Shown here: positions 2,237-63,534 of the stretch, one piece after another
Layout: each line of letters begins with the position of its first letter
Numbering within the stretch: position 1 is the stretch's first letter
From: JAWLHK01 sp041690355 [NCBI: bacterium]
GTDB taxonomy: Bacteria; J088; JAWLBW01
Length of the DNA stretch: 64,000 bases
NCBI GenBank assembly: GCA_041690355.1
Contig: JAWLHK010000005.1
Coordinates: 213,694 to 277,693, forward strand
Direction of reading: 5' to 3'
The notes under the pieces: model-generated
Told to the model about the DNA's origin: nothing
The model's input: only the letters and a program-made list of their open reading frames with translations
The model's database searches: none
Made by a program: the position numbers and the translations under genes

Positions 2237-2242
2237 GACCCT

Positions 2243-25861: not shown

Positions 25862-25862
25862 C

Positions 25863-42890: not shown

Positions 42891-43838
42891 ATGCAGAAAT
42901 CCGCACCTCCCGCCGATGCGACGTTGGAGCAGCAGCTTCTCGAAGCCGTGCAGAGCGATATCGAGAGCGTGCGTGCGGCCGCTGAACACCTGATCGCCGC
43001 CGGCGGAAAACGCGCTCGGCCCCGCTTCGCCTTCCTGATCGGCGAGCTGCTGGGGGTCGACCCCGCCGTGGCCGCCGCCGTCGGTGCGGCGGCCGAGCTG
43101 GTGCACACCGCCACCCTGCTCCATGACGACGTCCTCGACGGCAGCGATCGCCGCCGCGGGCGACCGGCCGTGCACGCGACGTTCGGTATCCGCAACGCCA
43201 TTCTGACGGGCGATTTCCTGCTCGCCCGCGCCATCGAGCACCTGACGGCGCGCGGACTTTTTCAGGCCACGCATGAGCTGACGCGCGCCGTGCGCGAACT
43301 GGTCGAGGCCGAGCTGCTCCAGCAGGAGCTGGCGTGGAACGCTGCCATCACGCAGGCGCAGGCGCGTCGCGTCGCCGAGGGAAAAACCGGCGCCCTGTTC
43401 GCGTGGTGCGCGCGCGGCCTCGCGGTCGAAGGGAAGCTCGATGCCGCCGGGATTGCATCGGCCGACGCGCTCGGCAGAGACGTGGGATTCGCCTTTCAGA
43501 TTGCCGACGACCTGCTCGACATTCACGCCGGAGGCGGCGACAAGCCGACCCGCGCCGATCTGCGCGCCGGACACGTAACCTTTCCGGTACGGCTGGCCTG
43601 CGATCGGGATGCGGAGCTGGAGGCCGCCATCCGCACGGCCTTCGCCTCACGCCGGGAGGCTGACTTCGAAGCCGCCTGCGCGGCCGTCGAACGCTCGCCC
43701 GCCGTCGCGCTGGCCAGAACCGAACTGGAGCAGGCGCGGAAACGGTTTTCGGATGCAGTCCGGGCGGCGGGCGCCAGCTCGGAGCTTGCCGGCCGCATGG
43801 AAGGGTTCTTCGACGCCGAGATCAGCCGCCAGCGCTGA
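42891..43838 (+). CDS. Polyprenyl diphosphate synthase
   Basis: This 315-residue all-helical prenyltransferase condenses isopentenyl diphosphate with allylic diphosphates. The first Asp-rich motif is LLHDDVLDGSDRRRGRP (DDxxD), the second FQIADDLLDI; GGKRARPRF is the conserved N-terminal Lys-Arg site. Chain length cannot be told safely. The ubiquinone/menaquinone side chain (octaprenyl or similar) is the usual role of this size class. It ends one base before the convergent DUF1566 gene stop. The nearby UbiA-like protein would need such a product. Confidence 0.88.
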   Translation: MQKSAPPADATLEQQLLEAVQSDIESVRAAAEHLIAAGGKRARPRFAFLIGELLGVDPAVAAAVGAAAELVHTATLLHDDVLDGSDRRRGRPAVHATFGIRNAILTGDFLLARAIEHLTARGLFQATHELTRAVRELVEAELLQQELAWNAAITQAQARRVAEGKTGALFAWCARGLAVEGKLDAAGIASADALGRDVGFAFQIADDLLDIHAGGGDKPTRADLRAGHVTFPVRLACDRDAELEAAIRTAFASRREADFEAACAAVERSPAVALARTELEQARKRFSDAVRAAGASSELAGRMEGFFDAEISRQR

Positions 43839-44282
43839 TCAGCGGACGCAACGCACGAGCGCCGCTTCGGTCTTCGGGTTGGTGTATACGTACCCGCTGC
43901 TGAACAGGATGTACCAGGCAAAGTTCGGGCTGCCGTGGCGGGTCGTCGACGACCAGTAGCCCACCACGTTCGTCCCCGGAAAAGCCGCCTCGTCAATGGC
44001 CGGCGACTGCCGATCGTCGGCCACGAGGGAGCGCAGCTCCTTGATCCCGGGCAGGCGCCAGTCGGTGCGCCCACCGAGCGTGAGGCCTTCGCAATAGGCG
44101 AGCGCATCGCGCCAGCGACGCGAGACGTTGTCGTCTTCGCGCTGCCAATGCAGACCCGTCGCGGAATCGAGCACCGTGCCGTCGCCCTGATCGGTCAGCG
44201 TCGACGAGGCCGCCGCGGGCCGGGCCAGGACGGCCGCCGTCAGCAAGGTCAGGAACAGGCAGAAGCGGAGTCGGATGCGCAT
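43839..44282 (-). CDS. DUF1566 (Lcl C-terminal-like) secreted protein
   Basis: The protein has 147 residues. A signal peptide (FLTLLTAAVLARPAAA) leads into one DUF1566 domain. TDQGDGTVLDSATGLHWQRED, WRDALAYCEGLTL, WRLPGIKELRSLV and FPGTNVVGYWSST are its landmarks, ending ALVRCVR. The domain is nearly superposable on that of the next gene upstream, which starts three bases from it, so this is a tandem duplication. It is the last gene of the large minus-strand operon. Confidence 0.82.
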   Translation of the reverse strand: MRIRLRFCLFLTLLTAAVLARPAAASSTLTDQGDGTVLDSATGLHWQREDDNVSRRWRDALAYCEGLTLGGRTDWRLPGIKELRSLVADDRQSPAIDEAAFPGTNVVGYWSSTTRHGSPNFAWYILFSSGYVYTNPKTEAALVRCVR

Positions 44283-44285
44283 GCT

Positions 44286-45377
44286 TTACCGTACGCAGCG
44301 CACGTAAGCGCTGTCCCCTTCGGCCTTCTTCAGCGGGCCGACGTATCCATAGCTGAACAGGACCACCCAGGCCGACTCGGCGTCTCCCGCGTGGCTCGTG
44401 GCGGTCCAGTAATAGGCCGATTCCGTTCCGGGAAAGACACTCAGGTCGATGCTCGGGCCCGCGCGGCCGTAATCGAGAATCGACTGCAGCTCGCGGCTCG
44501 TCGGCAGCCGCCAGCCGCCGCCGGCGAGCGGCAGCCCGCTGCAGTAGAGCACGGCGTCGCCCCAGGTGCGCGCCGTGTCGTCGTCTTCGCGCTGCCAGAC
44601 CAAGCCGGTGATCGCGTCGATCGCCGTGCCGTCGCCGGCGTCTGTGAAGCTCATCGGATAGGCGGCGTGCTGTGCGTCCTGGCCCGCAAAGGGTTCCCCT
44701 TCGGCTGGACAGGCGATCACGGCCGCGTTTCCATAGCACGTCTGCTGTCCGGAATCGGGCACCGGCCAGGATGGACTGCCTCCCGGACCGCCGGCCGAAA
44801 GTATCGTCCAGGTCCAGAAGGCCGGAGTCGCATCGACGTTTCCGGCGGCGTCGATGGCGCGAACCTCGAACGTGTTCTCTCCGCTGCTCAGCCTGTCGAG
44901 GGTGCCGGGCGAGTAGCAGCCGAACCAGAAGCCCGCGTTCAGCCGGCATTCGAACGTGCAGGCCGTCTCGTTGCACGAAAAGGTAAACGTGGCCGACGTC
45001 AGGTCGATCGGCGATGGCGGCCCGTCGGCGATCACGGTTTCGGGCGGGGTAAGGTCGTCTTCGGGCTCGGGAACCGTGCCGCACGCGCCGAGGCAGACAC
45101 TCGCGCACGCCGCGTCTCCTTCGCAGACGAGACCGCACTCGCGTACGCAGGCGGTAACCGGATCGGTCTCGCAGACCGCGCACTCCTCACAGACTTCGCA
45201 CTGCACGGGAGGCGGCGGTTTCGTATCCGTGTCCTTCTTCGCGGGGGGCGGTTCGTCGGACGTGCAGGCAGCCAAAAGGAGGACCGCGAGCAACGGCGCC
45301 GCGCAGCGCACCGCCCATGCACCGGCCCGTTCACGCAACCGCCGGAAGAATTCCCGAGAACCCGCAGGCATGCGCAT
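44286..45377 (-). CDS. DUF1566 lipoprotein with Cys-rich and Ig-like regions
   Basis: About 363 residues from ATG 45377 (an ATG at 45371 is also possible). Leader LLAVLLLAACTSDE has a lipobox. Next is a Cys-rich stretch (ten Cys in about 40 residues, beginning CEVCEECAVC). An Ig/OmpL47-like domain follows (FECRLNAGFWFGCYSPG, TFEVRAIDAAGN), and a C-terminal DUF1566 domain ends YVRCVR. The Ig-like part resembles the last two repeats of the giant secreted protein in the same operon, which supports joint function at the cell surface. Confidence 0.78.
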   Translation of the reverse strand: MRMPAGSREFFRRLRERAGAWAVRCAAPLLAVLLLAACTSDEPPPAKKDTDTKPPPPVQCEVCEECAVCETDPVTACVRECGLVCEGDAACASVCLGACGTVPEPEDDLTPPETVIADGPPSPIDLTSATFTFSCNETACTFECRLNAGFWFGCYSPGTLDRLSSGENTFEVRAIDAAGNVDATPAFWTWTILSAGGPGGSPSWPVPDSGQQTCYGNAAVIACPAEGEPFAGQDAQHAAYPMSFTDAGDGTAIDAITGLVWQREDDDTARTWGDAVLYCSGLPLAGGGWRLPTSRELQSILDYGRAGPSIDLSVFPGTESAYYWTATSHAGDAESAWVVLFSYGYVGPLKKAEGDSAYVRCVR

Positions 45378-45416
45378 CAACGATACCACAGACACACCCC
45401 TTCGGCCCGTACCGGC

Positions 45417-48170
45417 TCATCCCGCATGCAGCGCCCCGATGAGAAACAGAAAGAACAGCGAGAGCGTTACCAGCGCGGCGCGGAACCGAGAAGCCGACGG
45501 CGGACCCGCCATCAGGGCGGCGACCAGGGCGCCCGCCGCAACGCCCGATGGAGAAGCGATCCACGTGATGCGCCCCTCGACCGCGAGCAGCAGCGGTGCC
45601 GCCGCCAGCGCCGCCGCCGTCGTCACCAGGATGCCCGCGTGAAGCTTCTGCAGCGGCCAGCCCCGCCGCGCAGCGAGCGTATACGGCGTCTGCACGCCGG
45701 CGTCGCGATCCGCCGGCCAGTCCTTGTAATCCTTGAGCACGGCCACGAGCGAGAAGCCGCCGAAGGCGAGAAACATGGCCACCAGGGTGGGCGCCTCGAA
45801 CGGGCCCGTGAAGGCGGGGTCGGCGAGCGCGGGCGAATGGGTCGTCCACCAGCGCGGCGCACCGTAGGCCAGCTGTTCATGCGCGGCGACGACGCCGAAC
45901 CCGAAAGCGCAGAACCCCCAGATCCCCTCGATCTTCAGATTGGAGGGAAAGTAGCGCTTCGCCCGGTAGAAGGGGAAGTTGTAGAGCATGAACGTCGCGA
46001 AGGCGATCAGGGCGAGAAAGGTGTTCCCGCTGTGCGCCGCGGCGAGAATGAGCAGGCCCAGCACGGCGGTCAGCGTGAGAAAGCGTACGTCATCGGCATC
46101 CAGGTACCGGCGCCGGCCCTGGAGATCGTCTTCGGCACGATCGAAGAAATCGTTCTGCCCGAGCGCCACCCAGCCCGCGAGAAACATGAGAAAGGCATAG
46201 ACCGCCGTCGTCGCCGAAACCGAACCAGCATAAGCCGAGCCGAGAAAGCAGAAGAGCAGAAACGGGAGCGCGTGCGGGATGCGGCCGGCCAGTCCGGCGA
46301 GCAGGCGCGGACGGACGGCCAGATACAGCGCCATGGCGAGCACGACCCGCATCAGATTCTCGGTCGTGATCCGGTGCCCCGGAGGCCACCCGGCGGCTTC
46401 GACGGCGAGCGCCGCAGCGGTGCCGGGGAGGGCGAGAACGGCCACGCCCCCGAGCCACCCCGCGCCCAACGTTGCGAGCCCCCGCAGAGCCCCCGCGCGC
46501 AGGCCTACCCAGATCGCGCAGGACAGTGCGGCGACCCACCACACGAGCCCCCACCCTTCCATCCCCACCGGCGTCCACGGGACGGCGTCCGACCTGGCGG
46601 TCAGCACGGCAATGGCGGGCGGAAAAAGGCCGAGGCCGATCCAGGGGAGCGCGCCGGCCAGGGCGCGCGGAGCCGAAAAGCGTCCGAAAACCCGCGCCAC
46701 GGATGCGAACCAGAACAGGCCCAGCCAGAGCGTCGCGGCGGCCGACAGCCATGCGGCAAGCATCTGCTCGGGCGGTTCGCCGCCGGCCATCCAGGCCGCG
46801 AGCAGGCCGCCGCCGGCGACCACGAGCGATCCGAGAAAGGCGTGCAGGACTGCGGGCCTCCCTTCTCGCGGCGGAGAGATGCGCTCCCTGCGCGCGGCGG
46901 GGGGAAGCAGACGGGGAACGATGGCCGAGGCTGCGGCGAAGATGACCGCAAGGGCGGCGAGTGTACCGGAGTCCCACGGATACAGCGCGCCGGGCTCTGC
47001 CGGCTGCGGAAGAAAGGCGATCCACCAGCGCGGCGCCCCGTAGGCGGCCTGCTCCGCCGCGGCCGTGATGCCGAGGAGAAAGGCACACACGGCGAGGAGC
47101 CCGCCGAAAAGAAGGGCGCGGGAAAACTTCTGCACCCCCAACCCGAACCCCGCCAGAAAAAGGAGACCGAGCGCAGCCAGCGCCAGCGGGATCAGGCCGA
47201 GCGCATTCGCGGCCGCGAGCGCCAGGAGCAGCATTCCCCCCATGACGGCGAGCATCTGTGCGTCTTCCCGCTCCATCTCGCCCCCGCCCCCCTCGGATCT
47301 CTGTGACAGAACGGCGAGAGCGATCCCGACGACGATGACAAACAGCGCGGCATAGGCAAAGGCGCCGGGCCCAAGGCCACCGACCCAGAGCGAACCGGCG
47401 AGTACGAAGGCCCCCATGACCGCCAGATAGGCTGTGCGCCGGACGAACCACCGGCGCACCGCCGGCTGCAGGGCGACGAAAAGCACGAACGAGGCGGCAA
47501 TCTGCAGCAGATTCACGAGCGCGATGTAGTGGGTCGGCTGCCAGCCCGCGAGCGACCCGAACAGCATGGCGAGACCCGCGGGAAGGCCGCCGATGACGAT
47601 CACCCCGCCGTAGGAGAGCGACAGTGCCGCCAGGGTCCGGGGCATGCTGCGCGTCTTGTGCGCAACGTAGAGTGTCGTGAAGAAAATCACGGTCCACAGC
47701 ACGATGGCTTCGCCGATCGGGATGTTCAGCTTCGGGTTGTAGAGATACCAGTTGAACTCCGAAGGGACCCCCCAGACGTAAGCGTACTGAAAGCCGGTGC
47801 CGCTGAAGAGCGTGTCGAGCAGCGGCGGGAAGATGCCGAGAAAGATACCCACCAGGATGACGTTCATCGAGGTGCGCCAGGGCTGCGGCACGAGCAGGCG
47901 CAGCACGGTCGTGAACACGAAAAAGGTGAACCAGTAGAACCCGGTCAGGGTCACCACGAAGGAGAGCGGAAACGGATCCGGCACGCCGCCGAGAATCCAC
48001 TCGAGAAAGCGCCGCATCGATCCGACAAAGAGACAGAAGAAGAAGATCGCAAGCGGACTGAACGTCCGCTTCTCGAGCAGGGCCGAGACGTTGCGGAACC
48101 AGATCCAGGGATAGTTGCGCACGGCGCCACGCGACGTATCGGGGGGCCGCGAGGCCGTAAGACTGCTCAT
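45417..48170 (-). CDS. Giant membrane protein with a C-terminal UbiA-type prenyltransferase domain
   Basis: This 917-residue protein has more than 20 predicted membrane helices. The start at ATG 48170 overlaps the upstream stop (ATGA). The C-terminal ~300 residues carry both UbiA Asp motifs: QNDFFDRAEDD (about 672-682) and KDYKDWPADRD (about 813-823). A segment AYGAPRWW occurs twice, at about 376 and 769, in matching contexts, so the protein contains an internal duplication. The first copy lacks the Asp motifs. The N-terminal 230 residues are additional helices. A lipid or prenyl transfer function at the membrane is inferred from the UbiA part; the fusion is not one I recognise. Confidence 0.72.
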   Translation of the reverse strand: MSSLTASRPPDTSRGAVRNYPWIWFRNVSALLEKRTFSPLAIFFFCLFVGSMRRFLEWILGGVPDPFPLSFVVTLTGFYWFTFFVFTTVLRLLVPQPWRTSMNVILVGIFLGIFPPLLDTLFSGTGFQYAYVWGVPSEFNWYLYNPKLNIPIGEAIVLWTVIFFTTLYVAHKTRSMPRTLAALSLSYGGVIVIGGLPAGLAMLFGSLAGWQPTHYIALVNLLQIAASFVLFVALQPAVRRWFVRRTAYLAVMGAFVLAGSLWVGGLGPGAFAYAALFVIVVGIALAVLSQRSEGGGGEMEREDAQMLAVMGGMLLLALAAANALGLIPLALAALGLLFLAGFGLGVQKFSRALLFGGLLAVCAFLLGITAAAEQAAYGAPRWWIAFLPQPAEPGALYPWDSGTLAALAVIFAAASAIVPRLLPPAARRERISPPREGRPAVLHAFLGSLVVAGGGLLAAWMAGGEPPEQMLAAWLSAAATLWLGLFWFASVARVFGRFSAPRALAGALPWIGLGLFPPAIAVLTARSDAVPWTPVGMEGWGLVWWVAALSCAIWVGLRAGALRGLATLGAGWLGGVAVLALPGTAAALAVEAAGWPPGHRITTENLMRVVLAMALYLAVRPRLLAGLAGRIPHALPFLLFCFLGSAYAGSVSATTAVYAFLMFLAGWVALGQNDFFDRAEDDLQGRRRYLDADDVRFLTLTAVLGLLILAAAHSGNTFLALIAFATFMLYNFPFYRAKRYFPSNLKIEGIWGFCAFGFGVVAAHEQLAYGAPRWWTTHSPALADPAFTGPFEAPTLVAMFLAFGGFSLVAVLKDYKDWPADRDAGVQTPYTLAARRGWPLQKLHAGILVTTAAALAAAPLLLAVEGRITWIASPSGVAAGALVAALMAGPPSASRFRAALVTLSLFFLFLIGALHAG

Positions 48171-51100
48171 GGCAGGTGAACCTCGGCGACGGCTGCAGCA
48201 AGGTGATGGATGGCCACGAATACCGGCACTCCCTTCGCATCGCGAAGCGGCAGGCCGGCGTCGTCTTCGATCGCGAAGTACCCGTGCGGCAACAGCACCT
48301 CGAGCGCGCCCCCCGCGCCGCTCAGCCCTTCGATCGTGCGTCCGAAGAGGAGATCGCGAAAGCGCACCGGCGCCCCCGCGGCATAGGTCCCGTTCTTCAG
48401 GACCGTCGTGCGGAACCTGCGGATGCCGGCCGCGGGAAAGCCGGCCTCCGGTTCCGGACGACCGAGAAACCAGGCGGTTCCGTTCCACTCGCCCCACCAC
48501 TCCCAGCAGAGAGAATCGATGCGGGCGCGCGCGCCGAACGGAATGCCCTGCACGCGCCCCCCGCAGCGGACGGACAGCGCGGCGTCGCGCAGCTCGGACG
48601 ACCATGAGAAATCGTGTTCGCGACCGCCGGCGAAGCCGAGACCCGGGATAGCGCCCGGCAACGTGAATGCGCGCCTGTGTGTGCCGGACTCGATCATCCA
48701 GGCGCCTTCCGCACGCGGTCCCCACACGTAACCGGCGCCCGAGAACAACGCGGCCGGCGCCGGCCCGGTGACCGAAAGGGAACCCGCCACGGTCTGCAGG
48801 CCCAGCGGCCAGCGGGGCCCCTTCGCGGGAAGGGTGACGTGAACGGTTTTCTCATCGCCGGCCGTGAGGTGAAGCGACTGCGTGAGGCTCGCCCCCGAGG
48901 CCGGCGAGCGCACCATGAGCCGCCCGGCGCCGAGCGCCCGCAGCGAGAAGGTTCCGTCGGCGCAGGCCTGCGTGCGCGAGGTCCATGGCTCGGACTCCCA
49001 CTCGATCAGGGCCCCGGAGATCGGCGTCCCGTCTTCATCCCGGACGGAACCGAGGGCGCGGCCTGTCATGGCGACAGAAAGCAGCGGAAGGGTCACTGCG
49101 GGTTCATCCAGGTAGACCCACTCGCCGACATAGCCTTCGCGCAGGGCCCGGGCGCGCGAGCGCAGGCCGGGAGCGACCTGTACGGTGACCGACGGCGTTG
49201 CGGCGTCGTAGATCCGGAAATCGGCGAGGACGTCGGAGCGCACCTCGACCGCGGCGCTCAAGGCCTGGCCCTGATCATCCTGCACGGCGATCTGCACCGT
49301 CGCCGTCGACGCCGCGGGGGTGCCCGGGAGCGGCGCGGTCGCCGTCTCGCCCCCCGAACTCCAGAGGCGGATCTGCGCCGGCCACGAAGCCGCAAACGGG
49401 AGCGGCGCGACGCGCCGTCCGGTTCCGTCCCGATCCGCCAGCGTATCGAGAGGCGCGCGCACGAGAAGTTCCGCGGCGCCGTCGCGCACCTCCACGAACC
49501 CGGTGACGGCGCCGCCGAACGGAATGCCCGCGACGGCGAGACTCGAGGAGTCTGCACTCGCGGTCAGGCCGCCGCCCCGGTGCAGGGCCACGGCGGCTGC
49601 GGAACAGCCGACGAGGGCCCGGGGTTCATCCGCGGACGCGACTCCGTTACCGTCCTCATCCCAGAACCAGCGGCATGCGTCTGCCGCCTCGGCCGGATAG
49701 GTGACCGAAACCGGAGACGCGGCCGAAAGGTCGATGCCGCCCAGGCTCGTGCGCTCGAGCGGAAGCCCCGTTGGAGTCGTCGCGCGAAACACGCGCAGGA
49801 TACCCCCGGCCCCGCAGTCGCCACAGGCGACCTCGCTGGCCGCCGTCGTCACGGCCGGCATCCCGGGAACCGCTTCGAGCGCGGCCGTCACGGGAACGGC
49901 ACGGCGCAGAAATGCGCCGCCGAAGTCCTCGACGGCGGGGCGATAGATCGGTTCAGCATCGCCCCACACCCCGTCGCCGTTGACGTCTTCGACGAAGAAC
50001 AGGCGGGGGACGTCGAACCAGGGACGGCTCCAAACCGGAACGGTAACCGGGTGCGTCGCGACCGGCGCGGCCTGCCAGACGGGTATCGTTGCCGACGAGG
50101 CGTAGAGGAGCCAGCGGTGCGCCGCGGCCGGCCGCGCCGGCAGCGTCAACGCGATTCCGGCCCTGTAAATGCCGACGGTGCGCCAGGCCGAGGCGCCGGC
50201 GGGCCGATAAAGAAACTCGTTCCAGCCTGCCGCGAGGGGAACCGCGCCGGCCGCGAGCAGCGTGAAATCGAGTGCGCGGATCTCTTCGGGCGGGCCCTCG
50301 CCGGCCTGCGCCAGCCATGCGCCCAAGTCGAAGGGGGCACCGGTGACAGCCGTGATCGGCAGAACGGAGAGCGATGCGGGCGGGACCGCGGCAGCCGTGG
50401 AGGAGACCGCCGCAAGATGCCGGACATTACCGGCGCGATCGGTCACCCGCGCCCGCGCCGTGAAGGCGCCGCCCCCCGTCTGCCAGGCAGTCGAGAAGCG
50501 AAACCCGCCGGAGACCGCCTGCATGGGGACGCAATGGGAAAAGGCGGCGTCGCAGAGTTCGGCGGCGGCGAGGCCCGCACCGGTGTCAGAGGCGTCGATG
50601 CGGAAATGGGTCGGCGGAGACCAGGGCGGGTCAAAGTTCCACACCGCGACAGGAGGCGTGGCGTCGACGTGAACGTCGACGGTGTTGCCCACGATGTCGT
50701 CTGCGCCCGGGGTCGCGACCCGGCACTCCACAGTCCAGGCCTTTTCAAGCGTCAGCGGCGGGAGGGTGAGCGTCGTGGTTCCCCGCGGATACGCCGCCGA
50801 CACCAGCGAAACGCTTCGCGTGCCGCCGGCCCGCAGCTCGAGCGCCGACAAGGCGGCCGGCAGCGAGAACGAAACCTCCAGCGGTATCGGCTCGGCGGCG
50901 CCGTAGTGCGTGCGGGCAGGCGGCTGGATGACGCAGAACCCCTCGGGGTCGCGCATCGCCAGTTGATAACCGAAGCTGTACGGACCCCAGACACGGCCGC
51001 CGGCGTCCCGGGTGAAGACGACAAGGCTCGCGCTGTCGACGAGCCGGATGGCGACCGGATTGCCCTCCCAGGCTTCGACCTCGGGATCCGGGGCCCGGTT

Positions 51101-51343
51101 CAGGGCGAAGAGCAGTTCGACCTCGGGGTCGGCCGCCGCGAGGGTGACGTCAAGCGCGTAAGCGCCGTACGCACCCGGCGGCGGCTCCACCGAAAGAAGC
51201 GGCTCCATCGGCCCCTCGTCGGGCGGTCCGGTGCGCGGCGGCTCGGGATCGCCGGAACAGGATGCCGTCAGCAGCAGCAGGAGCGCGACCCCCGGCCATC
51301 GGATGCGCCCTGCGGCAGGGAAACCGGATCTGCGTATCCCCAT
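48167..51343 (-). CDS. Giant lipoprotein with chitobiase-like and Ca-binding-like regions
   Basis: The protein has 1058 residues. Leader VALLLLLTASCSGDP gives a lipobox. The N-terminal ~130 residues resemble a chitobiase/beta-hexosaminidase C-terminal repeat. Ig-like segments follow (FTARARVTDRAGNVRHL). DVNGDGVWGDAE and DEDGNGVASADE are EF-hand/dockerin-like loops. A carboxypeptidase-regulatory-like domain (GSVRDEDGTPISGALIEWESE) lies towards the C-terminus. No catalytic site is seen, so it looks structural or adhesive. It starts nine bases after the giant secreted protein gene and overlaps the UbiA-like gene. Confidence 0.72.
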   Translation of the reverse strand: MGIRRSGFPAAGRIRWPGVALLLLLTASCSGDPEPPRTGPPDEGPMEPLLSVEPPPGAYGAYALDVTLAAADPEVELLFALNRAPDPEVEAWEGNPVAIRLVDSASLVVFTRDAGGRVWGPYSFGYQLAMRDPEGFCVIQPPARTHYGAAEPIPLEVSFSLPAALSALELRAGGTRSVSLVSAAYPRGTTTLTLPPLTLEKAWTVECRVATPGADDIVGNTVDVHVDATPPVAVWNFDPPWSPPTHFRIDASDTGAGLAAAELCDAAFSHCVPMQAVSGGFRFSTAWQTGGGAFTARARVTDRAGNVRHLAAVSSTAAAVPPASLSVLPITAVTGAPFDLGAWLAQAGEGPPEEIRALDFTLLAAGAVPLAAGWNEFLYRPAGASAWRTVGIYRAGIALTLPARPAAAHRWLLYASSATIPVWQAAPVATHPVTVPVWSRPWFDVPRLFFVEDVNGDGVWGDAEPIYRPAVEDFGGAFLRRAVPVTAALEAVPGMPAVTTAASEVACGDCGAGGILRVFRATTPTGLPLERTSLGGIDLSAASPVSVTYPAEAADACRWFWDEDGNGVASADEPRALVGCSAAAVALHRGGGLTASADSSSLAVAGIPFGGAVTGFVEVRDGAAELLVRAPLDTLADRDGTGRRVAPLPFAASWPAQIRLWSSGGETATAPLPGTPAASTATVQIAVQDDQGQALSAAVEVRSDVLADFRIYDAATPSVTVQVAPGLRSRARALREGYVGEWVYLDEPAVTLPLLSVAMTGRALGSVRDEDGTPISGALIEWESEPWTSRTQACADGTFSLRALGAGRLMVRSPASGASLTQSLHLTAGDEKTVHVTLPAKGPRWPLGLQTVAGSLSVTGPAPAALFSGAGYVWGPRAEGAWMIESGTHRRAFTLPGAIPGLGFAGGREHDFSWSSELRDAALSVRCGGRVQGIPFGARARIDSLCWEWWGEWNGTAWFLGRPEPEAGFPAAGIRRFRTTVLKNGTYAAGAPVRFRDLLFGRTIEGLSGAGGALEVLLPHGYFAIEDDAGLPLRDAKGVPVFVAIHHLAAAVAEVHLP

Positions 51344-51352
51344 GCACGCCTT

Positions 51353-54300
51353 TCACAGCCGCCTGCGGCGCAGGGCTGCCCACACGAGGGTCGCGAGCAG
51401 CAGCCCGAGGGGAGCCTCGCTCGATCCGGCGCATCCGCCGCAGCCAGCGCCTTCGCCCACGACGATGTCGCGCGCCACGCTGGCCGTGTTCCCCGCGAGA
51501 TCGGTGGCACGGACACGCAGCGTATGCCGCCCGGCAGCGACGCCGCGCAGCGGAACGGTCTCGGCCTCGAGCCGCGTCCACGGACCTCCATCGAAGGCGT
51601 ACTCGGTGACCAGCTCGCCGGACGGCGTCTGCAGATCGGAACGCTCCACAGGAACCGAGCGCGTGTAGACTCCCTGCGGTGAGGGCGCAATCGCAATGCG
51701 CGGGGCCAACGTATCCACCGAGAACTCGATGCGTGTCGGGGCCACCTGTCCCGCAAATCCGCCCACGGTATCGGTCAGGGCCCGCACCTCGAGCGCATGC
51801 TCCCCTTCGGTCAGCGACTCGAGCGCGATATCGCCGCTGTTGCGCGGCGTGCGCCAGAACCCGCCGTCAAGGCGCCAGGTGAAGAGCGCGTCTACGTCGC
51901 CGCCCGGAGCTGCGGCCACGGCCGTGAAGCGCGGACTGCGTTCAGCGATCCAGCGCACGCCCTCCATGGCGGGAACCACCGCCTTCGGGGTGACGGCCGG
52001 CGGCGCGCCGAGTGCCGCCATGAGGGTCGGCAGGTCGAGCTGGCCAAACCGGCGGACGTAGACGCCGAGGTAATCGCCCCGCGATCCCTGCGTGCTCACA
52101 CCGATACCGTCATCATTCGGACCGTCGGGGCCGATGTAGAGAAAGTCGACGTCGAAGAAGCGGGCGGGCGTGCCCGTACCCGTCCCCGTCGGCTGCGGCG
52201 GCGTGAAGAATTCAGTCGAGGCGCGCGTATCCATGTACAGCTTCACGGTCGCGTCGAGCAGCGTAACGACCGCCTGCGCAACGCCCAGCAGGTCGCACCC
52301 TTCGCCGCAGTTGGCCTCGAGCACCTCGAACTTGGCCGCGCCGGGATTGTTCGTCACGAAGTCATGGTTCGTGAAGCGGCCCGCCGCGAACCCGTCGATG
52401 ATGTTGACCGGCGGCTCGAACTGGCTGGCCAGCGCGTCGTTTCCGTAATCGAGATAGGCCTGCCAGTACCCTGAAACCGTACGCACCAGCGGGTCAATCG
52501 ACGTGCACTCGGGCCTGTCGTGCAGCGGATCGAGCTCGTGGCACTGCCGCATGGCGCGCAGATAAATGCCGACCACGGCGTTCCAGTTCATCTTGAGGAC
52601 TTCGATCTCGACATTGGATTCGGGATCGACGACGGCGACGTTGAGCTGAAGGTCAGGGAGCGCAATGCCCATCGTGTAGGGCTCGTTGGTAATCGGCGCA
52701 GAACCCTGAATCCCCGGCGCATGCGTATGGGTCAGCGTCCCGATGCCCATGCGCGCCCGCGGGCTGCTCTGCGGCGCGATGCGCACCTTGACGGGAGCAT
52801 GCGGAAACTGCGTCTGAAGCTCTGGCAGAAAGGCAGCAAACGCATCCGTATTCAGGAACGAGGCCCAGGGGGTCTCTTCGCCGGTCTCTTCGTCGGTGGG
52901 CGCAAATTCGATACAGGCCGCGCCGGAGCTGACCACGGCCTGCAGCAGCTGATTGATGGCGCGCTGGTGGATGTGTATGCTGGCATCGTAATCGATGTTG
53001 CCCGACTCTTTGACCCCGTAGTCGTTCTGATGCGCAGCCACGATGGATCGGCCGCCGACCGCCGTCCCGGCAATGTAGTCCCAGTAGCCGACGGTATCGC
53101 GCTGTCCGGCCGGGGGCTGGACCATTGATGACGCGCCGGCCGGCTTGGTGTCGCTCGGATCGAAGGCCAGCCAGGTGCTCATGGGGAACCGGGCCGCGAG
53201 CGCGTCGGCTTCTTCTTTCGCGCGCTGCGGGGTCATGCACCAGTCGGGCGAACGCTTGTACGGCGCGACCCAGTACGGCTCGATCACCCGGCGACCCGAG
53301 TAGGACAGGTTGGTCTTGGGGTCGATCCAGTTGCCCTCGAGCATGTGGTCTTCGTAATCGTACTGCTGATCTTCGTCTTCGACGTCGAGGAGCGGATTAT
53401 CGCGCGAGCAGCGGCGGCTCACGATGGACCAGGCCTGCGATCCGTTGAGCGTCGTGGCGTAGGTGCGGTAGGCCAGGCCCGTGTCGAAGTCGAGCTGAAT
53501 CTGCCGGGCGCCGGCATTGACGGCCTTGATGTAATAGACGTTGTTCGGGTTCGCGGCGAACGTGAACTGGTCTCCGACGCGGATATCGGTCATGGTGCCC
53601 TGCGAGAACGAAGCGGGCAGCGTCAGCCATCCCGCCGAAATTCCCCAGTTGCCCGCGTTGAAATCGCCCGCGCGGCCGCTGTCGATGAGATAGTGCGCCG
53701 TGGAGATGCGCGAGACGTTGTGGATCTTACTCCACCGCCAAGTCGAAAGATCAAAGAAGAAGGAACCGTTGTACGTCGCATTGATCCCGGGGCCCGTGAG
53801 CACGCCGGTTCCGCTCGTGTACGTATAGGTCGCCGTTCCGGTGCCCGACGCCTGCCACACCGGCGTGACCCCCGTGCCCGAGAGGGGCACCTGACAGCTG
53901 CCGGTATCCGGATAGACCATCGTAGGGACGGCGAAAAAGGAATCGTCTTCGATGCCGTTGTCGGCGTTGGCGGGAACCTCGTCGACCCCCGGCTGGTCGA
54001 CGATCATGATGCCGTTGCCGTTCGGCGGACGAAACGCAATGGGGCGAAAGCCGAGAGCGCCGTTCAGGTTGATGATGTCGGAGCGCCCCGCAATCGCCGG
54101 CTGGATGTCGACCGGCCAGATCTTACGTGTGGCATCCAGCGGGTCGTTGATACCGTCTGCGCCGGCGCCGGTCAGAAACAGACCGACGTCGACGAGCGAC
54201 GTTCCGAAATTCCACGGATCGCCGAGCATCGTGTTCAGGTTCGGCAACCCCGTGTTGATTTCTTCGACCGTGTCGTTGATCAGCTTGGCAAACTCATCCT

Positions 54301-56227
54301 GAAACACGTCGGCCACCGCGCCGGAGATCTGCTCCACGAGCAGCCCCCCTTCGGCCGTGCCCGAACCGAGCCGGAAAACGCACATGCCGTAGACACTGTG
54401 GTAGCAGGTGCTTCCGGCGGCAGACAAGTCCTGGAAAACGGCGCGAAAACGGTTGACGCCGGCATAGGTGTTGATGGCCGTGGTCGTCAGGTTCAAGCCG
54501 ATGCGGAACCGATCGGGACGCAGCAGGCCGTCATCGGCCCCGGTCCACGGGTCGTTGCAGTGCCCGCCCGCCACGCCGCACGAATAGTTGTCGTAGGACA
54601 GGATCTTCGCCGACCCGGCAAGCTGCACCGAATCGATCATGATCGCGCCGGTCGCCCATTTGCGCTTGACCTGCTGCCCCGGGCGGCTGCCGCAGGACGG
54701 GCTGAGAAAGCTCACGCCGATGGTGCACTCGGTGGCGAAATCGAAAAAGATGGCCATTTCGAGGCGCCACTCGTCGCCGACCAGGTTGAGGTCGATCTCC
54801 TCGTTCACCGGGTCGAGGGCCAGCGTGTTGACGCGCAGGGCGCTCCAGCCGGTCGTGCCGCAGGTCTTGGTCGCATCGTTGCCGGGATAAATGATCCTGG
54901 CGTCGTCGCTCGAGTCCCATTCCTTGCAGGCGATCCACTTTTCCTTCGTGGAATCCCAATACGACTTGGGACGCAGGCACTGCGGCACGCGGTCGTAGAA
55001 GTAGATCGGCTCGCCGGCGCCGTCGAGCGTGCCGGTATAGACGGGGCCGTAGCCGCAGCCCGCGACCGCCTTCGGGCCGTGCGCCGCCGTCGAAAGGGCG
55101 TCCCGGTCGATGGAGTGAATCTGCATCTCGCGGACGTCCGGATAAAAGGCGATGTCGTCGCCGGGGCGGAAGTAGGAACCGAAGAGCTCGCTGTAGACGC
55201 GGGTCTCATCGTGGTCGGAGGCGTCGGCCGGAAAGTTTCCCGCTTTCCACGTTAATCCTCCGCCGTCGGCGCCGGAGGTACGATACCCATGCGGATTATT
55301 GAAGGAACCGGTATAGACGCCGTAGCGCTTGAGCGGCTGATAGCCGAAGTAATCACCGACGGCGCCGTAGTTGAGCGTGAGCGGTCGCATCCAGGCCGGA
55401 TCGTCTGCGCCGAGGTTGGTCGAGCGCATCCCCCCGGCGTTCTCGACGAAGCCGTTGGGGAAGATGTAGACGCCGGCGTTCATGTAGATCTCGCCGGCCG
55501 GCGGCTCGACCAGCGGATCCATGTCGCAGCGCAGGCCGAGTTCGTTCACCTGGTGATGCGTGCAGACGTCTGCCCAGCACCAACCGGCGCGGTTCCACAT
55601 GCACGCCGACTGCTGATTGAAACATTTACCCTCATCGGCGACGAAGAAGCCGTGCTCGCGCTGAAAGCTCTGCAGATAGGAAGGCAGCCCGCGCTGATTG
55701 CAGAGAATTCCCTGCGCGATGTGCGCGCCGCAGGCGTTGACGTTGACCCGATCGTCGTTGTTGCAAGGCGATCCTGCGTCGCCGGGACGGCGCACCTGCA
55801 GCCAGTGAAAGCGGCGCGGAGTCGTCTGGTCCATGGCGAGACAGCCGGTATCGTCGCCGGCGCAGTTGTCGGAGCGCCAGGCCCACATGAGCTCAACGGG
55901 GGTCGTGCGCACGCCGCCGGCATTCTTGGCGACCGGATCGTAGCCCGGATCGAGGATCGTGTTGAAGCCGCCGGGTTCGGTGTAGAAGTTGGAGTCGCGC
56001 GTGCTCTGCGGCTCGGTCCACGACCCGAGCATCTTGTTGACTTCGACTTTGGCGGCGTCGAAGAGGCGCCCCGAGACCCGGGCGCGCACCCCGTAGTTCG
56101 TGACGTGCGGATCGTCGATGGCCATGGCCTTCTGCGCAGGCCCGCTCTCCTCGGCGGCGGCGGGTGCGGCCGGCAGGAGCGCGGCGAGGATGGCGGCAAG
56201 GATGAACAGACGTGCGTGTTCGTTCAT
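51353..56227 (-). CDS. Giant secreted protein with a C-terminal sorting-like tail
   Basis: The protein has 1624 residues. Signal peptide (LAAILAALLPAAPAAA). The N-terminal 250 residues are rich in Cys, Asn and Trp (NDDRVNVNACGAHIAQG, MWNRAGWCWADVCTHHQ). A long middle has beta-rich segments without a known motif. The last 170 residues hold two Ig/OmpL47-like repeats (FTWRLDGGFWRTPRN, LEVRALTD). The protein ends GAGCGGCAGSSEAP, a hydrophobic helix LGLLLATLVWAALR and RRR. That Cys-motif/helix/Arg tail is like MYXO-CTERM-type sorting signals. It starts in ATGA overlap with the upstream lipoprotein gene. Function unknown. Confidence 0.72.
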   Translation of the reverse strand: MNEHARLFILAAILAALLPAAPAAAEESGPAQKAMAIDDPHVTNYGVRARVSGRLFDAAKVEVNKMLGSWTEPQSTRDSNFYTEPGGFNTILDPGYDPVAKNAGGVRTTPVELMWAWRSDNCAGDDTGCLAMDQTTPRRFHWLQVRRPGDAGSPCNNDDRVNVNACGAHIAQGILCNQRGLPSYLQSFQREHGFFVADEGKCFNQQSACMWNRAGWCWADVCTHHQVNELGLRCDMDPLVEPPAGEIYMNAGVYIFPNGFVENAGGMRSTNLGADDPAWMRPLTLNYGAVGDYFGYQPLKRYGVYTGSFNNPHGYRTSGADGGGLTWKAGNFPADASDHDETRVYSELFGSYFRPGDDIAFYPDVREMQIHSIDRDALSTAAHGPKAVAGCGYGPVYTGTLDGAGEPIYFYDRVPQCLRPKSYWDSTKEKWIACKEWDSSDDARIIYPGNDATKTCGTTGWSALRVNTLALDPVNEEIDLNLVGDEWRLEMAIFFDFATECTIGVSFLSPSCGSRPGQQVKRKWATGAIMIDSVQLAGSAKILSYDNYSCGVAGGHCNDPWTGADDGLLRPDRFRIGLNLTTTAINTYAGVNRFRAVFQDLSAAGSTCYHSVYGMCVFRLGSGTAEGGLLVEQISGAVADVFQDEFAKLINDTVEEINTGLPNLNTMLGDPWNFGTSLVDVGLFLTGAGADGINDPLDATRKIWPVDIQPAIAGRSDIINLNGALGFRPIAFRPPNGNGIMIVDQPGVDEVPANADNGIEDDSFFAVPTMVYPDTGSCQVPLSGTGVTPVWQASGTGTATYTYTSGTGVLTGPGINATYNGSFFFDLSTWRWSKIHNVSRISTAHYLIDSGRAGDFNAGNWGISAGWLTLPASFSQGTMTDIRVGDQFTFAANPNNVYYIKAVNAGARQIQLDFDTGLAYRTYATTLNGSQAWSIVSRRCSRDNPLLDVEDEDQQYDYEDHMLEGNWIDPKTNLSYSGRRVIEPYWVAPYKRSPDWCMTPQRAKEEADALAARFPMSTWLAFDPSDTKPAGASSMVQPPAGQRDTVGYWDYIAGTAVGGRSIVAAHQNDYGVKESGNIDYDASIHIHQRAINQLLQAVVSSGAACIEFAPTDEETGEETPWASFLNTDAFAAFLPELQTQFPHAPVKVRIAPQSSPRARMGIGTLTHTHAPGIQGSAPITNEPYTMGIALPDLQLNVAVVDPESNVEIEVLKMNWNAVVGIYLRAMRQCHELDPLHDRPECTSIDPLVRTVSGYWQAYLDYGNDALASQFEPPVNIIDGFAAGRFTNHDFVTNNPGAAKFEVLEANCGEGCDLLGVAQAVVTLLDATVKLYMDTRASTEFFTPPQPTGTGTGTPARFFDVDFLYIGPDGPNDDGIGVSTQGSRGDYLGVYVRRFGQLDLPTLMAALGAPPAVTPKAVVPAMEGVRWIAERSPRFTAVAAAPGGDVDALFTWRLDGGFWRTPRNSGDIALESLTEGEHALEVRALTDTVGGFAGQVAPTRIEFSVDTLAPRIAIAPSPQGVYTRSVPVERSDLQTPSGELVTEYAFDGGPWTRLEAETVPLRGVAAGRHTLRVRATDLAGNTASVARDIVVGEGAGCGGCAGSSEAPLGLLLATLVWAALRRRRL

Positions 56228-57249
56228 GGCAGAACCTCCCCGGCGGCAGCCGGCGGAAGAACAGACGCCTGCGTGAGCGGACTCGTCAGGCGGAAGTCGG
56301 TTTGGGGCAGCGGGTATCCGCCGGCCTGGAGAAGCGTGGCAATCACGTAAGCGCCGAGCGGGGCCTGGTTCTCGGCCTGCTGCTCGATCGGCGAGCCGCC
56401 CCAGGACCCATCGGGTCGCTGCGCGCGGATGAAGTCGATGATGATTTTCGTCGGCACGGCCGAAAGCCGTTCGCTGGCCGCCAGCGCGAAGAGAACGTAA
56501 GCCGTCTGGTCAACGGGCCGGTCGCGCTTGCCGAGCCAGCGCACCAGGCGCGGCACCAGCGGCGCGGACTGCTCGCGAAAAACTCGTTCGCCGATGCAGC
56601 CGTGCATGAGGAAGCCGGCATAGAGCCCGTACTGCACCCACTCGGTATCCGCCGGCCAGGCCAGCGTGTCCATGCGCCGCAGGAAACGCGCATTGTAGTC
56701 GGCCTCGGCGGGCAGGCAATGCCCGACGGCCGAAAGCGAGAAGAGCATGGCCAGCGCCTGATCGGAGGGCCGCGCCGGGAGTCCGGGCTGCATGCGCTCG
56801 CGGATCCAGGCCCAATCGATTCCGCTTTCCAGCGGCCGGATTTCCGCAATTCCCCCCGGCTTCTCGCGAACCAGGCTGGGCAGCAGCGTTCCGCTCGCGA
56901 GCACCTTGGCGGTGATTTCAGCGGCATTGGCGCGTACGCCGAAATCCTTTTCGAGATAATAGAGACCGGTGAGTCCGCCTTCGCGCCAGGAGGCGGCCGG
57001 CGCGCTCTGTACGCGTTCGAGCGCGAGAAGGAAGCGCCGGTTCAGCTCGTCGCGGAAGCCTTCGCCCGCCGCTTCGCCGGCCGCATCAGAGGTTTTCTCA
57101 GCGGGTGCCTTCCCGACGGCTGCCGGTTCAGGCGTGGCGTTCGACGTGCAGGCGATGGGCAGAATCAAAAGACACGCGAGCGCTTGGCACAAGGTGCGAT
57201 ACACGTGCCGCGTCACAAACGGTCTTCGAGTAGTCGGATCCGGTCTCAT
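56224..57249 (-). CDS. Lipoprotein with alpha/alpha-repeat-like helices
   Basis: This 341-residue protein starts at ATG 57249, behind GGAG. The leader ending LLILPIACTSN has a lipobox about 32 residues in, after a basic N-terminus. The mature part is a series of helix pairs with RAQRPDGSWGGSP near the end, resembling the QW motif of terpene-cyclase/prenyltransferase-type alpha/alpha barrels. Any enzymatic role is unproven. It is the first gene of the six-gene minus-strand operon and is translationally coupled (ATGA) to the giant secreted protein. Confidence 0.68.
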   Translation of the reverse strand: MRPDPTTRRPFVTRHVYRTLCQALACLLILPIACTSNATPEPAAVGKAPAEKTSDAAGEAAGEGFRDELNRRFLLALERVQSAPAASWREGGLTGLYYLEKDFGVRANAAEITAKVLASGTLLPSLVREKPGGIAEIRPLESGIDWAWIRERMQPGLPARPSDQALAMLFSLSAVGHCLPAEADYNARFLRRMDTLAWPADTEWVQYGLYAGFLMHGCIGERVFREQSAPLVPRLVRWLGKRDRPVDQTAYVLFALAASERLSAVPTKIIIDFIRAQRPDGSWGGSPIEQQAENQAPLGAYVIATLLQAGGYPLPQTDFRLTSPLTQASVLPPAAAGEVLP

Positions 57250-57669
57250 AGGTCTCCGGCGAACAGCCGCAGAATTTGTATCGACTTGCACCCACCTCTG
57301 CCGCAGATCGGTACACTCCGAGCAGCCGGCGCATCGCCAGGCGCCGATGTCGGAATCCTAACAAAATATACATGTTCGTTTCAATTATTTCGTTGACACA
57401 GTGCATCACCGCATTGACGCACTGCTTAATCCGAAAGCCGACCGATCGGTAAGCCCGAACTGTCCGAATGATCTCCTTCTCCAAGACTGCCATAACTTTC
57501 CATAAGTTAACGCGCGCATCACCCTCTTCGTGGCGCGCATGAGTGCGTCAGAATTTCATGACGCAAGGCCACAGTTATCGTAAAACAATATTCGAGCGGC
57601 TTTGCGCCACGTCGGCCCAACATGATAGGATTCGCCGAACACGACTGAGCGTTGACGGAGGAGTTCGGG
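57250..57669. promoter_or_regulatory. Intergenic region (420 bases) between divergent genes, with dyads
   Basis: No gene is seen here. A relatively A+T-rich stretch at about 57355-57410 includes a minus-strand TATATT (-10-like, complement of 57365-57370), plausibly the operon promoter. The palindrome ACCGATCGGT (57441-57450) repeats the one at 147-156. Inverted repeats are TAACTT/AAGTTA (57493-57509) and TGCGTCA/TGACGCA (57544-57565). The plus-strand promoter is at 57602-57631. The number of dyads suggests a regulated region. Confidence 0.55.
57602..57631 (+). promoter_or_regulatory. Promoter of the small membrane protein gene
   Basis: TTGCGC at 57602-57607 and TAGGAT at 57626-57631 are separated by 18 bases. 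The ATG at 57670 follows a GGAGGAG ribosome-binding stretch. Confidence 0.5.
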
Positions 57670-58228: not shown

Positions 58229-59362
58229 TCAGCCTGCGCGCAGCAATGCGCCCAGCACGCGCTCGTACATGCGCGAGAGACGTTCGAGGTCGGCGACGGA
58301 TACGCACTCGTCGATCTGGTGAATTGTCGCGTTCAGGGGACCCAGTTCGATGACCTCGGCCCCGGTGGGCGCGATGAAGCGGCCATCCGAGGTTCCCCCG
58401 CCGGTCGAGAGGACGGGCTCGAAGCCCATCTCGTCGCGCACGGCCGCCTGCACGGCGGGAATCAGGCGCCCCGTCTGCGTGAGGAATGGAAGCCCGTGCA
58501 CCTTCCACTCGAGATCCACGGAAGTCACGTTATGGCGGGCTAGAATTTCGCGCACGCGCTCCTGAAGCGACTCCGGCGTCTGCTCGGTCGAGAAGCGGAA
58601 GTTGAACATGACGCGCAGCTCGCCGGGGATCACGTTGTTGGCGCCGGTGCCCGCCTGCACCTCGACGATCTGGAAGCCGGTCGGCGGGAAGTACTCGTTC
58701 CCCCGATCCCACTCGGTCGCCGCCAGTTCCGCCAGCGCGGGCGCGACCTTGTGGATCGGATTTTCCGCAAGATGCGGATAGGCGACGTGCCCCTGTTTTC
58801 CACGTACGGTGAGGTAGCCGGTCATCGACCCGCGCCGTCCATTGCGCGCAAGGTCGCCCAGGCGCTTCTCGCTCGACGGCTCGCCCACGACGCACCAAGT
58901 GATCTTTTCGTTCCGCGCCTCCAGCGCCTCGATCACGCGGCGCGTGCCGTCGATGGAAGGGCCCTCTTCGTCGGCCGTGAGCAGAAAGGCGATGGAGCCG
59001 GAATGATCCGGGTGCGCGGCGACGAAGCGCTCCACAGCCGTGACCATGGCGGCCAGGCTCCCCTTCATGTCGGCGGCGCCGCGCCCGTAGAGCATGCCGT
59101 CGCGAATCACGGGCTCGAATGGATTCGAGCTCCACTTGTCGAGCGGACCGGTGGGCACGACGTCGGTGTGCCCCGCAAAGCAGAAGAGCGGACCTTCCGC
59201 TCCGCGCCTTGCCCACAGGTTCTCGACCTCGCCGAAGCGCATGCGCTCGAGGCGGAACCCGATGGCTTCCAGACGGCGGCCAATCAGCTCCTGGCACCCC
59301 TCGTCGCGGGGGGTAACCGAGGCTTTCGCGATCAGGGCGCTGGCGAGTTCGACCGTGCTCAT
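58229..59362 (-). CDS. dapE: Succinyl-diaminopimelate desuccinylase
   Basis: This 377-residue di-zinc enzyme removes succinate from N-succinyl-LL-2,6-diaminopimelate in lysine and peptidoglycan synthesis. Ligands are His and Asp in [12 protein letters not shown], Asp in [14 protein letters not shown] and the Glu pair in [15 protein letters not shown]-terminal His is in [25 protein letters not shown] fits the family. The order dapD then dapE, 37 bases apart, forms an operon. Confidence 0.95.
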
Positions 59363-59399
59363 ACCTTCCGCCCGATGACGGAAAAAGGGGAAATCCGAA

Positions 59400-60230
<831 letters not shown>

Positions 60231-60282
60231 GGCAACTCCTCTCCGGACAGATGTGGACAAACGAAAATTGTACCGGACCCGC

Positions 60283-62082: not shown

Positions 62083-63534
62083 ATGTTCGAACAGACCTTC
62101 AGGAATATCGACGACGTGCTCTGGAAAGAGTCCGGCTGCACGACGGAGCTCGATTACACGGAGCAGACTTCATGGATGCTCTTTCTCAAATACCTCGACG
62201 ACCTCGAGAAGGAGCGGGCCCTGGAGGCCGAGCTTGTCGGCAAGCCCTACACGTATCTGATCGATGAAGACCATCGCTGGTCGACCTGGGCGGCGCCGAA
62301 AAAGCCGGACGGCACGTTTGATCACGACCGCGCCCTGACCGGCGCCGACCTGATCGACTTCGTCAACCGGAAGCTCTTCCCCTACCTGCAGGGGTTCAAG
62401 CAGCGGGCCAGCGGGCCCGACACCATCGAGTACAAAATCGGCGAGATCTTCGGCGAGATCAAGAACAAATTTTCGAGCGGGTACTCCCTGCGCGACGCCC
62501 TGGAGCTCATGGATACGCTGCGCTTTCGTTCGCAGCAGGAGAAGCACGAGCTCAGCCACCTGTACGAGGCCAAGATCCGCAACATGGGCAACGCCGGGCG
62601 CAACGGCGGCGAATACTACACGCCCCGCCCGCTCATTCGCGCCATGATCCAGGTGATCGACCCGAAGATCGGCGAGACGATCTACGACGGCGCCTGCGGC
62701 TCAGCCGGCTTTCTCTGCGAAGCCCATGACTACCTGCGCGCCGGAAAGCTTACGACGGCGCAGCTCAATACCCTGCAGAAGCGCACCTTCTATGGCAAGG
62801 AGAAGAAACCGCTCGCCTACATCATCGGCACGATGAACATGATCCTCCATGGCATCGACGCCCCGAACATCGTGCACACGAACACGCTTGCCGAGAACCT
62901 GGCCGACATCCAGCCGAAGGATCAGTACGACGTCATCCTCGCCAACCCGCCTTTCGGGGGAAAAGAGCGCAAGGAGATCCAGCAGAACTTCCCCATCAAG
63001 ACCGGCGAAACGGCCTTCCTGTTTTTGCAGCACTTCGTCAAGAGCCTCAAGCCGGGGGGACGGGCGGCGGTCGTCATCAAGAACACCTTTCTCTCCATCG
63101 CCGACAACGCGGCGCGGGCATTGCGGAAACAACTGCTCGACGACTGCAACCTGCACACCGTGCTCGACTGCCCGCAGGGCACGTTCCAAGGCGCCGGCGT
63201 GAAGACGGTCGTGCTCTTCTTCGAGAAGGGGGCCCCGACACGGAAGATCTGGTACTACCAGCTCGACCCCGGCCGCAACCTTGGCAAGACCAACCCCCTC
63301 AACGACGACGACCTCGCAGGGTTTGTAGCGCTGCAGAAGACGTTCGCCGACTCGGAGAAGTCCTGGTCGGTCAGCATCGGCGATATCGACCCCGAAGGCA
63401 TCGACCTGTCGGTGAAGAACCCTCGGGAACCGGATGGGGATCCGATTCGAACGCCCGAGGAAATCCTGGCCGAAATCGAGAAGCTCGATGCCGAAGCGAC
63501 CGCCGTGCTGGCGGGAATTCGGAGGCTGTTGTGA
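62083..63534 (+). CDS. hsdM: Type I restriction-modification methyltransferase subunit
   Basis: This 483-residue N6-adenine methyltransferase subunit belongs to a type I system. Its N-terminal helical domain begins FEQTFRNIDDVLWKESGCTTELDYTEQTSWMLFLKYLDDLE. The SAM-binding motif is YDGACGSAGFLCE and the catalytic NPPF is about residues 288-291 in ILANPPFGGKE. The stop overlaps the hsdS start (GTGA), so the two are coupled. An hsdR gene is expected beyond the right edge. Confidence 0.95.
   Translation: MFEQTFRNIDDVLWKESGCTTELDYTEQTSWMLFLKYLDDLEKERALEAELVGKPYTYLIDEDHRWSTWAAPKKPDGTFDHDRALTGADLIDFVNRKLFPYLQGFKQRASGPDTIEYKIGEIFGEIKNKFSSGYSLRDALELMDTLRFRSQQEKHELSHLYEAKIRNMGNAGRNGGEYYTPRPLIRAMIQVIDPKIGETIYDGACGSAGFLCEAHDYLRAGKLTTAQLNTLQKRTFYGKEKKPLAYIIGTMNMILHGIDAPNIVHTNTLAENLADIQPKDQYDVILANPPFGGKERKEIQQNFPIKTGETAFLFLQHFVKSLKPGGRAAVVIKNTFLSIADNAARALRKQLLDDCNLHTVLDCPQGTFQGAGVKTVVLFFEKGAPTRKIWYYQLDPGRNLGKTNPLNDDDLAGFVALQKTFADSEKSWSVSIGDIDPEGIDLSVKNPREPDGDPIRTPEEILAEIEKLDAEATAVLAGIRRLL

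Follow-up and report, generated by a model that had tools for sequence, protein, structure and literature searches.

An unusual six-gene envelope-directed operon encoding a duplicated UbiA-like membrane protein and a giant protein with a possible BPI/CETP-like region

Six minus-strand genes, here called A to F, follow one another in the 64-kb window (the whole stretch of DNA analyzed, 64,000 nucleotides), and their make-up raises the question of whether the encoded proteins work together at the cell envelope and, if so, on what. The original prediction placed a six-gene run between 57249 and 43839, with overlaps or gaps of at most about 40 bases. All six ORFs are present in that span (Table 1), and the packing is tighter than had been claimed, the junctions measuring -4 (A/B), +9 (B/C), -4 (C/D), +21 (D/E, with the first GTG taken as the start of E) and +3 bases (E/F). 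The GC content at codon position 3 is 0.77-0.86 in all six genes, whereas the three long antisense ORFs that were tested have their GC peak at position 1, the mirror of this pattern; the six ORFs are therefore real genes. Across the six genes, two 4-base overlaps and otherwise gaps of only 3-21 bases suggest common expression, and a single transcript for A-F is plausible from the sequence. A promoter-like site lies just upstream of A, the scan that located it having returned two such sites where 1.2 were expected by chance. We consider A-F a real and unusual operon; its function, and from the gene packing its standing as a system, we infer. On the other side of F is a convergent polyprenyl diphosphate synthase gene, whose stop codon abuts that of F.

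Table 1. Coordinates of the operon genes, of the regions discussed within B and D, and of two flanking features, given as positions in the 64-kb window
Feature	Coordinates	Strand	Description
Promoter-like site, extended -10	57355-57384	-	just upstream of A; 9/12 matches
Gene A	56224-57249	-	341 aa; start codon uncertain
Gene B	51353-56227	-	1,624-aa giant with predicted signal peptide
Candidate BPI/CETP C-type (TULIP) lipid-binding region, B residues 1079-1181	52685-52993	-	weak PF02886 matches
Two Ig/OmpL47-like modules, B residues 1421-1590	51458-51967	-	all matches below cut-offs
MYXO-CTERM-like tail, B residues 1593-1624	51356-51451	-	Cys motif, short hydrophobic stretch, RRRRL
Gene C	48167-51343	-	1,058-aa predicted lipoprotein
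Gene D	45417-48170	-	917-aa polytopic membrane protein, about 23 hydrophobic segments
D unit 1, residues 40-417	46920-48053	-	degenerate copy without Asp motifs
D unit 2, residues 442-917	45420-46847	-	UbiA domain with both Asp motifs
Gene E	44286-45395	-	369 aa with the first GTG as start; start uncertain
Gene F	43839-44282	-	147-aa predicted secreted protein
Polyprenyl diphosphate synthase	42891-43838	+	PF00348, E=4.9e-49; convergent, outside the operon

A UbiA-type domain had been predicted in the membrane protein D and DUF1566 domains in two other products, and all of these exceed the curated Pfam cut-offs. In D, the UbiA model (PF01040) matches residues 638-898 with E=2.9e-9 and 37.0 bits against a cut-off of 34.2 (37.9 bits on a fragment). 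The protein is also internally repeated, with residues 40-417 aligning to residues 442-809 (106 of 360 aligned residues identical) at a score that none of 500 shuffles reached. The two motifs described for UbiA enzymes, NDxxDxxxD and DxxxD (PMC7839719), are found in the second unit as NDFFDRAED at residue 673 and KDYKDWPADRDAG at residue 813 (DxxxD at 817). Neither motif was found in D before residue 673, and the alignment of unit 1 ends ahead of the last helices of unit 2. Judged by its sequence, D is a UbiA-like protein that has been duplicated and in which one of the two units is complete. While unit 2 agrees with the intramembrane prenyltransferases of this family in passing the cut-off and in keeping both Asp motifs, D differs from them in being duplicated in tandem, with the first copy degenerate, and in having at the N-terminal end of each unit an additional membrane module without a Pfam match. 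A Yip1-like identity considered for this module was dropped, as Pfam returned no match.

UbiA enzymes are described as producing lipoquinones, haem and other prenylated aromatics (PMC7839719), and D probably attaches long prenyl chains. The original prediction that D makes or attaches a lipid fits this complete second unit, at the level of sequence. D might then simply make an ordinary prenylated metabolite (a quinone, haem or similar), with its position in the operon being incidental. The product range quoted above would agree with such a role, as would the polyprenyl synthase gene adjoining the operon. We nevertheless find it improbable, as D is a double-size duplicated protein; D was also found in none of 398 Pseudomonadota genomes at E<=1e-4, an empty result that is uninformative without a known positive.

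If D makes a prenyl lipid, then the giant protein B would be a candidate for handling it. B has a hydrophobic stretch at residues 7-25, predicted to be a signal peptide, and contains 30 Cys. Further along the protein, the BPI/LBP/CETP C-domain model (PF02886) matched whole B over 42 residues (1125-1166) with E=0.23 and 11.3 bits, and matched an in-frame fragment (52350-53200), picked after this first match, with E=0.0056 and 16.6 bits, both scores being under the curated cut-off of 23 bits. When the PDB was searched by sequence, BPI was the best match of the same fragment (E=0.36) and the third of whole B (E=3.2), with Lys-gingipain ahead at 0.17. Reversed 280-residue tiles of B, of which seven out of nine were scanned, gave zero Pfam matches at E<=10. 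An E-value near 0.2 nevertheless carries little weight here, since Pfam matches that we take for chance were obtained at 0.16-0.24 in the same two large proteins (AMP-binding_C_3 at 0.24 and 0.23 in fragments of B; UAA at 0.16 in a fragment of D).

A second line of comparison came from a Pseudomonadota ORF (L088; 594 aa, 814-2598, minus strand) that was found independently of B and that matches PF02886 with E=2.3e-6, as well as LBP (9e-4) and BPI (0.004) in the PDB. The model is rare in the genomes searched, being present in one of the 398 Pseudomonadota genomes (that of L088) and in 0 of 14 control genomes; within the order of L088 it occurred in one of 199 genomes sampled, the L088 genome itself. 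In local alignments, the human BPI segment scored 73 against B at residues 1125-1181 (shuffles 34.7 +/- 4.6, 0/1000 as high) and the L088 segment scored 55 at residues 1079-1156 (shuffles 37.4 +/- 4.9, 4/1000 as high), the latter being the fairer comparison because the BPI segment had been preselected as the top match. The locations in B matched by the two segments overlap, and a profile made from both gave 16.5 bits on B, the best of 2000 shuffled giants reaching 7.0. When L088 was compared with B over its full length, no match was significant and none fell at residues 1079-1181 (best blastp E=0.072, located elsewhere; phmmer -2.5 bits). An AF2 model of B residues 1030-1430, made without homologues, had a pLDDT of 34.9, too poor for structure comparison. 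The resemblance of residues 1079-1181 to the BPI/CETP C-terminal lipid-binding domain is thus suggestive only, and we regard the presence and the absence of a TULIP domain in B as about equally probable.

A BPI-like N-domain had also been considered at the start of B, from a likeness to BPI seen by eye, and it failed the shuffle tests. About 55 residues from the N-terminus of BPI and of L088 were compared with B: 615 and 946 of 2000 shuffles, respectively, did as well, and 404 and 75 of 2000 when B residues 36-110 alone served as the target. The N-domain model PF01273 was absent from the Pfam scans of whole B and of its fragments. With no N-domain match, a BPI-like pseudo-dimer is unsupported in B.

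How would such a protein compare with the TULIP proteins already described? Like the BPI/CETP proteins, B combines the local C-domain match with predicted secretion, but it exceeds the 456-residue BPI chains about 3.5-fold in length, lacks the N-domain match, is bacterial, and carries Ig-like modules and a sorting-type tail. The bacterial TULIPs named in PMC6791001 are P47, OrfX2, YceB/DUF1439, DUF4403, DUF2140 and DUF2993, and such proteins are also treated in an earlier review (PMC5507252). DUF4403 is given there (PMC6791001) as a full-length BPI-like pseudo-dimer, YceB and DUF4403 are presented as membrane-anchored, and the same source suggests that anchored bacterial TULIPs may pass lipids to partners. 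B would have the same fold if the BPI-like reading holds. P47, OrfX2, YceB, DUF4403, DUF2140 and DUF2993 were, however, unmatched in whole B (Pfam, E<=1) and in the scanned fragments (E<=10, a range narrowed in practice by HMMER filters that discard most matches above about 0.1), and B instead matches the BPI C-domain model.

The C-terminal part of B bears on where the protein would reside. Ahead of the tail, the OmpL47 model NF047446 matches residues 1534-1584 with E=1.5e-7, and a fragment from the tail end matches the Pfam models Big_13 (1.5e-5) and BiPBP_C (2e-4), all three below their cut-offs. The last residues resemble a MYXO-CTERM sorting tail. TIGR03901, run on the final 82 residues, aligned over model positions 1-33 of 34 with 15.4 bits (E=0.019), short of the cut-off of 20. 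Both the Cys motif (CGGCAG) and the RRRRL Arg cluster are present, and the hydrophobic stretch has a mean of 2.04 when 15 residues are taken and of 1.32 when 19 are taken, the latter being under the threshold of 1.5 (19-residue mean) used in our scan for hydrophobic segments. B is thus like the myxosortase-sorted proteins in its Cys motif, hydrophobic stretch and C-terminal Arg cluster, and differs from them in its sub-threshold score and in the shortness of the hydrophobic stretch.

According to PMC11980579, MYXO-CTERM tails direct proteins to the cell surface in Myxococcus; in Myxococcus xanthus the intramembrane protease MrtX cuts them, and export to the surface proceeds via the type II system. 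The same work proposes that the MYXO-CTERM Cys is lipidated, with Lgt the enzyme its authors favour, and reports the processing of such a tail by MrtX in E. coli (PMC11980579). By analogy, B may anchor itself through its own tail, in which case the lipoproteins would be unneeded for anchoring it. The earlier idea of a giant that is displayed or anchored fits such a tail on B itself, to the extent that a match below the cut-off allows.

The original prediction called both A and C lipoproteins. We find that C and E fit a PROSITE-style lipobox pattern and that A does not, which leaves the lipoprotein status of A unsure. C contains a carboxypeptidase-regulatory-like domain (PF13620, E=3.1e-9, over the curated cut-off), and two EF-hand-like loops were located by pattern at residues 453 and 562. 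The Lcl_C/DUF1566 domain (PF07603) was found in E (3.5e-29, 101.9 bits) and in F (1.3e-35, 122.6 bits), far over the cut-off of 34.9 bits, and the two copies are 49-50% identical by BLAST. E has 20 Cys with a Cys-rich stretch and an Ig-like module, and F has a hydrophobic N-terminus. Ig/OmpL47-like modules had been claimed for at least two products; besides those of B, matches were obtained in C (Big_13, 0.016) and in E (OmpL47, 0.045), and B and E matched each other in a BLAST comparison of the six proteins (E=0.002 and 0.007, depending on direction). The sharing of modules by B, C and E therefore stands as a set of profile matches that all lie below the curated cut-offs.

In the Legionella collagen-like protein Lcl, the C-terminal region holds DUF1566, is trimeric and recruits glycosaminoglycans, as reported in PMC11162425, where the domain is also described as present in many prokaryotes, in proteins of diverse kinds, and as lacking a clear general role. 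E and F carry the same Lcl_C domain as Lcl but show no visible collagen-like repeats; E adds the Cys-rich stretch and the lipobox, and F consists of little beyond the domain.

These features would also suit a complex for adhesion or matrix binding, in which B, C, E and F act as modular proteins of the surface, the UbiA enzyme does no more than modify the membrane or is present as a passenger, and B is free of lipid. The Ig/OmpL47-like modules in B, C and E, the glycosaminoglycan-binding precedent for the Lcl_C domains of E and F (PMC11162425) and the sorting-type tail of B all argue for it. It leaves unexplained, however, both the BPI-like match in B and the presence in D of a UbiA unit with intact motifs, and we consider it rather unlikely.

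A has an N-terminal hydrophobic segment, making export likely, and near its C-terminus a squalene-cyclase-like repeat matched weakly (NCBIfam TIGR01787, E=0.15; 0.042 on a fragment). Neither the whole protein nor the fragment matched Pfam. An AF2 model made without homologues was helical with a weak pLDDT of 46.4, and no Foldseek match was obtained for it at E<=0.001. An alpha-toroid fold was considered and set aside, the best Foldseek matches being designed and natural helical repeats. A is probably an exported, helical protein.

Could the six genes share a promoter and nothing else? Searches for relatives bear on this possibility. B had no relative in any of 398 Pseudomonadota genomes at E<=1e-6, in 72,556 plasmids or in 50,697 phages, and exact octamer seeds in genome_contigs returned 18 stretches, none of them a relative. 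D and C were likewise without relatives in the plasmids, and B, D, C and A gave no homologues in viral_contigs. When 26 genomes were searched at E<=0.01, and 56 genomes chosen as relatives of one of these at E<=0.001, the only matches to B were a pair covering 64 residues each (L086 and L087; B residues 775-838, E=0.007 and 7.2e-4), 34 and 36% identical to B and located in ORFs of 533 and 528 aa, respectively. They possibly reflect a small domain shared with B and are not counted as relatives. None of the operon proteins had a match at E<=1e-5 in the loci compared, which included at least 80 listed dapD loci; Lcl_C was present in 0 of 1 genome and, below the cut-off, in 1 of 14 control genomes. 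Among the open-access titles and abstracts listed for such a system, and for bacterial BPI or TULIP proteins, there was no operon of this make-up.

Fast-evolving surface genes often cluster, and A-F might be a run of envelope genes, unrelated to one another and specific to the lineage, behind a common promoter, with no pathway among them. The lack of relatives of B in the Pseudomonadota genomes, plasmids, phages and genome_contigs (octamer seeds) would agree with this. That absence is weak evidence, however, since the sensitive searches were centred on Pseudomonadota and, as for D, an empty result without a known positive is uninformative; the 4-base overlaps and short gaps moreover suggest common expression. 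We regard such a run as unlikely.

The reading that we favor, while holding it only tentatively, is that A-F form a prenyl-lipid-handling surface system, since one tight operon encodes a prenyltransferase together with lipoproteins and a giant that may bind lipid and that ends in a sorting-type tail. The searches turned up no homologous operon and hence no conserved linkage between D and B; for this reason, and given the Pseudomonadota-bound sensitive searches, the adhesion complex and the cluster without a pathway stay close rivals. Overall, the original interpretation is supported in part: the evidence supports an operon directed to the envelope, whose products include a giant that may be anchored and a membrane protein resembling prenyltransferases. 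The duplication in D and, in B, the BPI-like region and the sorting-type tail go beyond what had originally been noticed.

In a prenyl-lipid-handling system, D would join a polyprenyl chain to some head group in the inner membrane, and the neighboring polyprenyl diphosphate synthase (42891-43838) could supply the prenyl donor. B would be exported and then held on the envelope by its tail, where it might carry or present the lipid made by D, or a lipid taken from outside, and C, E and F could be the part of the complex that faces sugars or matrix. The more specific proposal of a self-contained pathway, in which the duplicated UbiA protein makes a prenyl lipid of the inner membrane and a surface-held BPI/CETP-type giant with a MYXO-CTERM-like tail carries or displays it, seems to us quite unlikely to hold in full. 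Much less likely still is a bolder form, in which D supplies the lipid for the tail Cys of B, in parallel to CAAX prenylation and cleavage by CPBP-family proteases. That form is disfavored because MrtX processed a tail in E. coli and because Lgt is the favoured enzyme in PMC11980579.

If B does bind lipid in the manner of BPI, it would be a bacterial protein with a direct match to the C-domain of the eukaryotic BPI/CETP proteins, in contrast to the TULIP families named in PMC6791001. It would also tie a BPI-type binder genetically to a lipid-making enzyme, so that the synthesis, transfer and surface display of a lipid could be tested in a single operon. Should the lipid reading prove wrong, the duplicated UbiA protein would still make the locus a distinctive surface operon.

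The 64-kb window gave neither a tRNA nor an Rfam family at gathering score, and several other genes in it deserve mention. At 28285-30417 (-), a gene shows similarity to the hydrazine-synthase beta-gamma and MauG-like di-haem proteins, below curated cut-offs, and is adjoined by a gene for a Big_5 Ig-domain protein (30422-31912). At 24815-27428 (-), a DltB-like acyltransferase (below the equivalog cut-off) has a GDSL-esterase-like neighbor (below cut-off); such pairs often acylate surface polymers. A dapE-dapD pair lies at 58229-60260 (-), and the dapD matches listed reach 76% identity and are gamma- or betaproteobacterial where a class is named, two of them (L014 and L076) being named only as Proteobacteria; this is an odd fit with the deltaproteobacterial affiliation assumed in the original prediction. 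Near the end of the window, an HsdM/MAD2-like DNA methyltransferase is encoded at 62083-63534 (+), below equivalog cut-offs. The GC content falls to 0.60 toward that end, and this end of the window is possibly a mobile or defence region.
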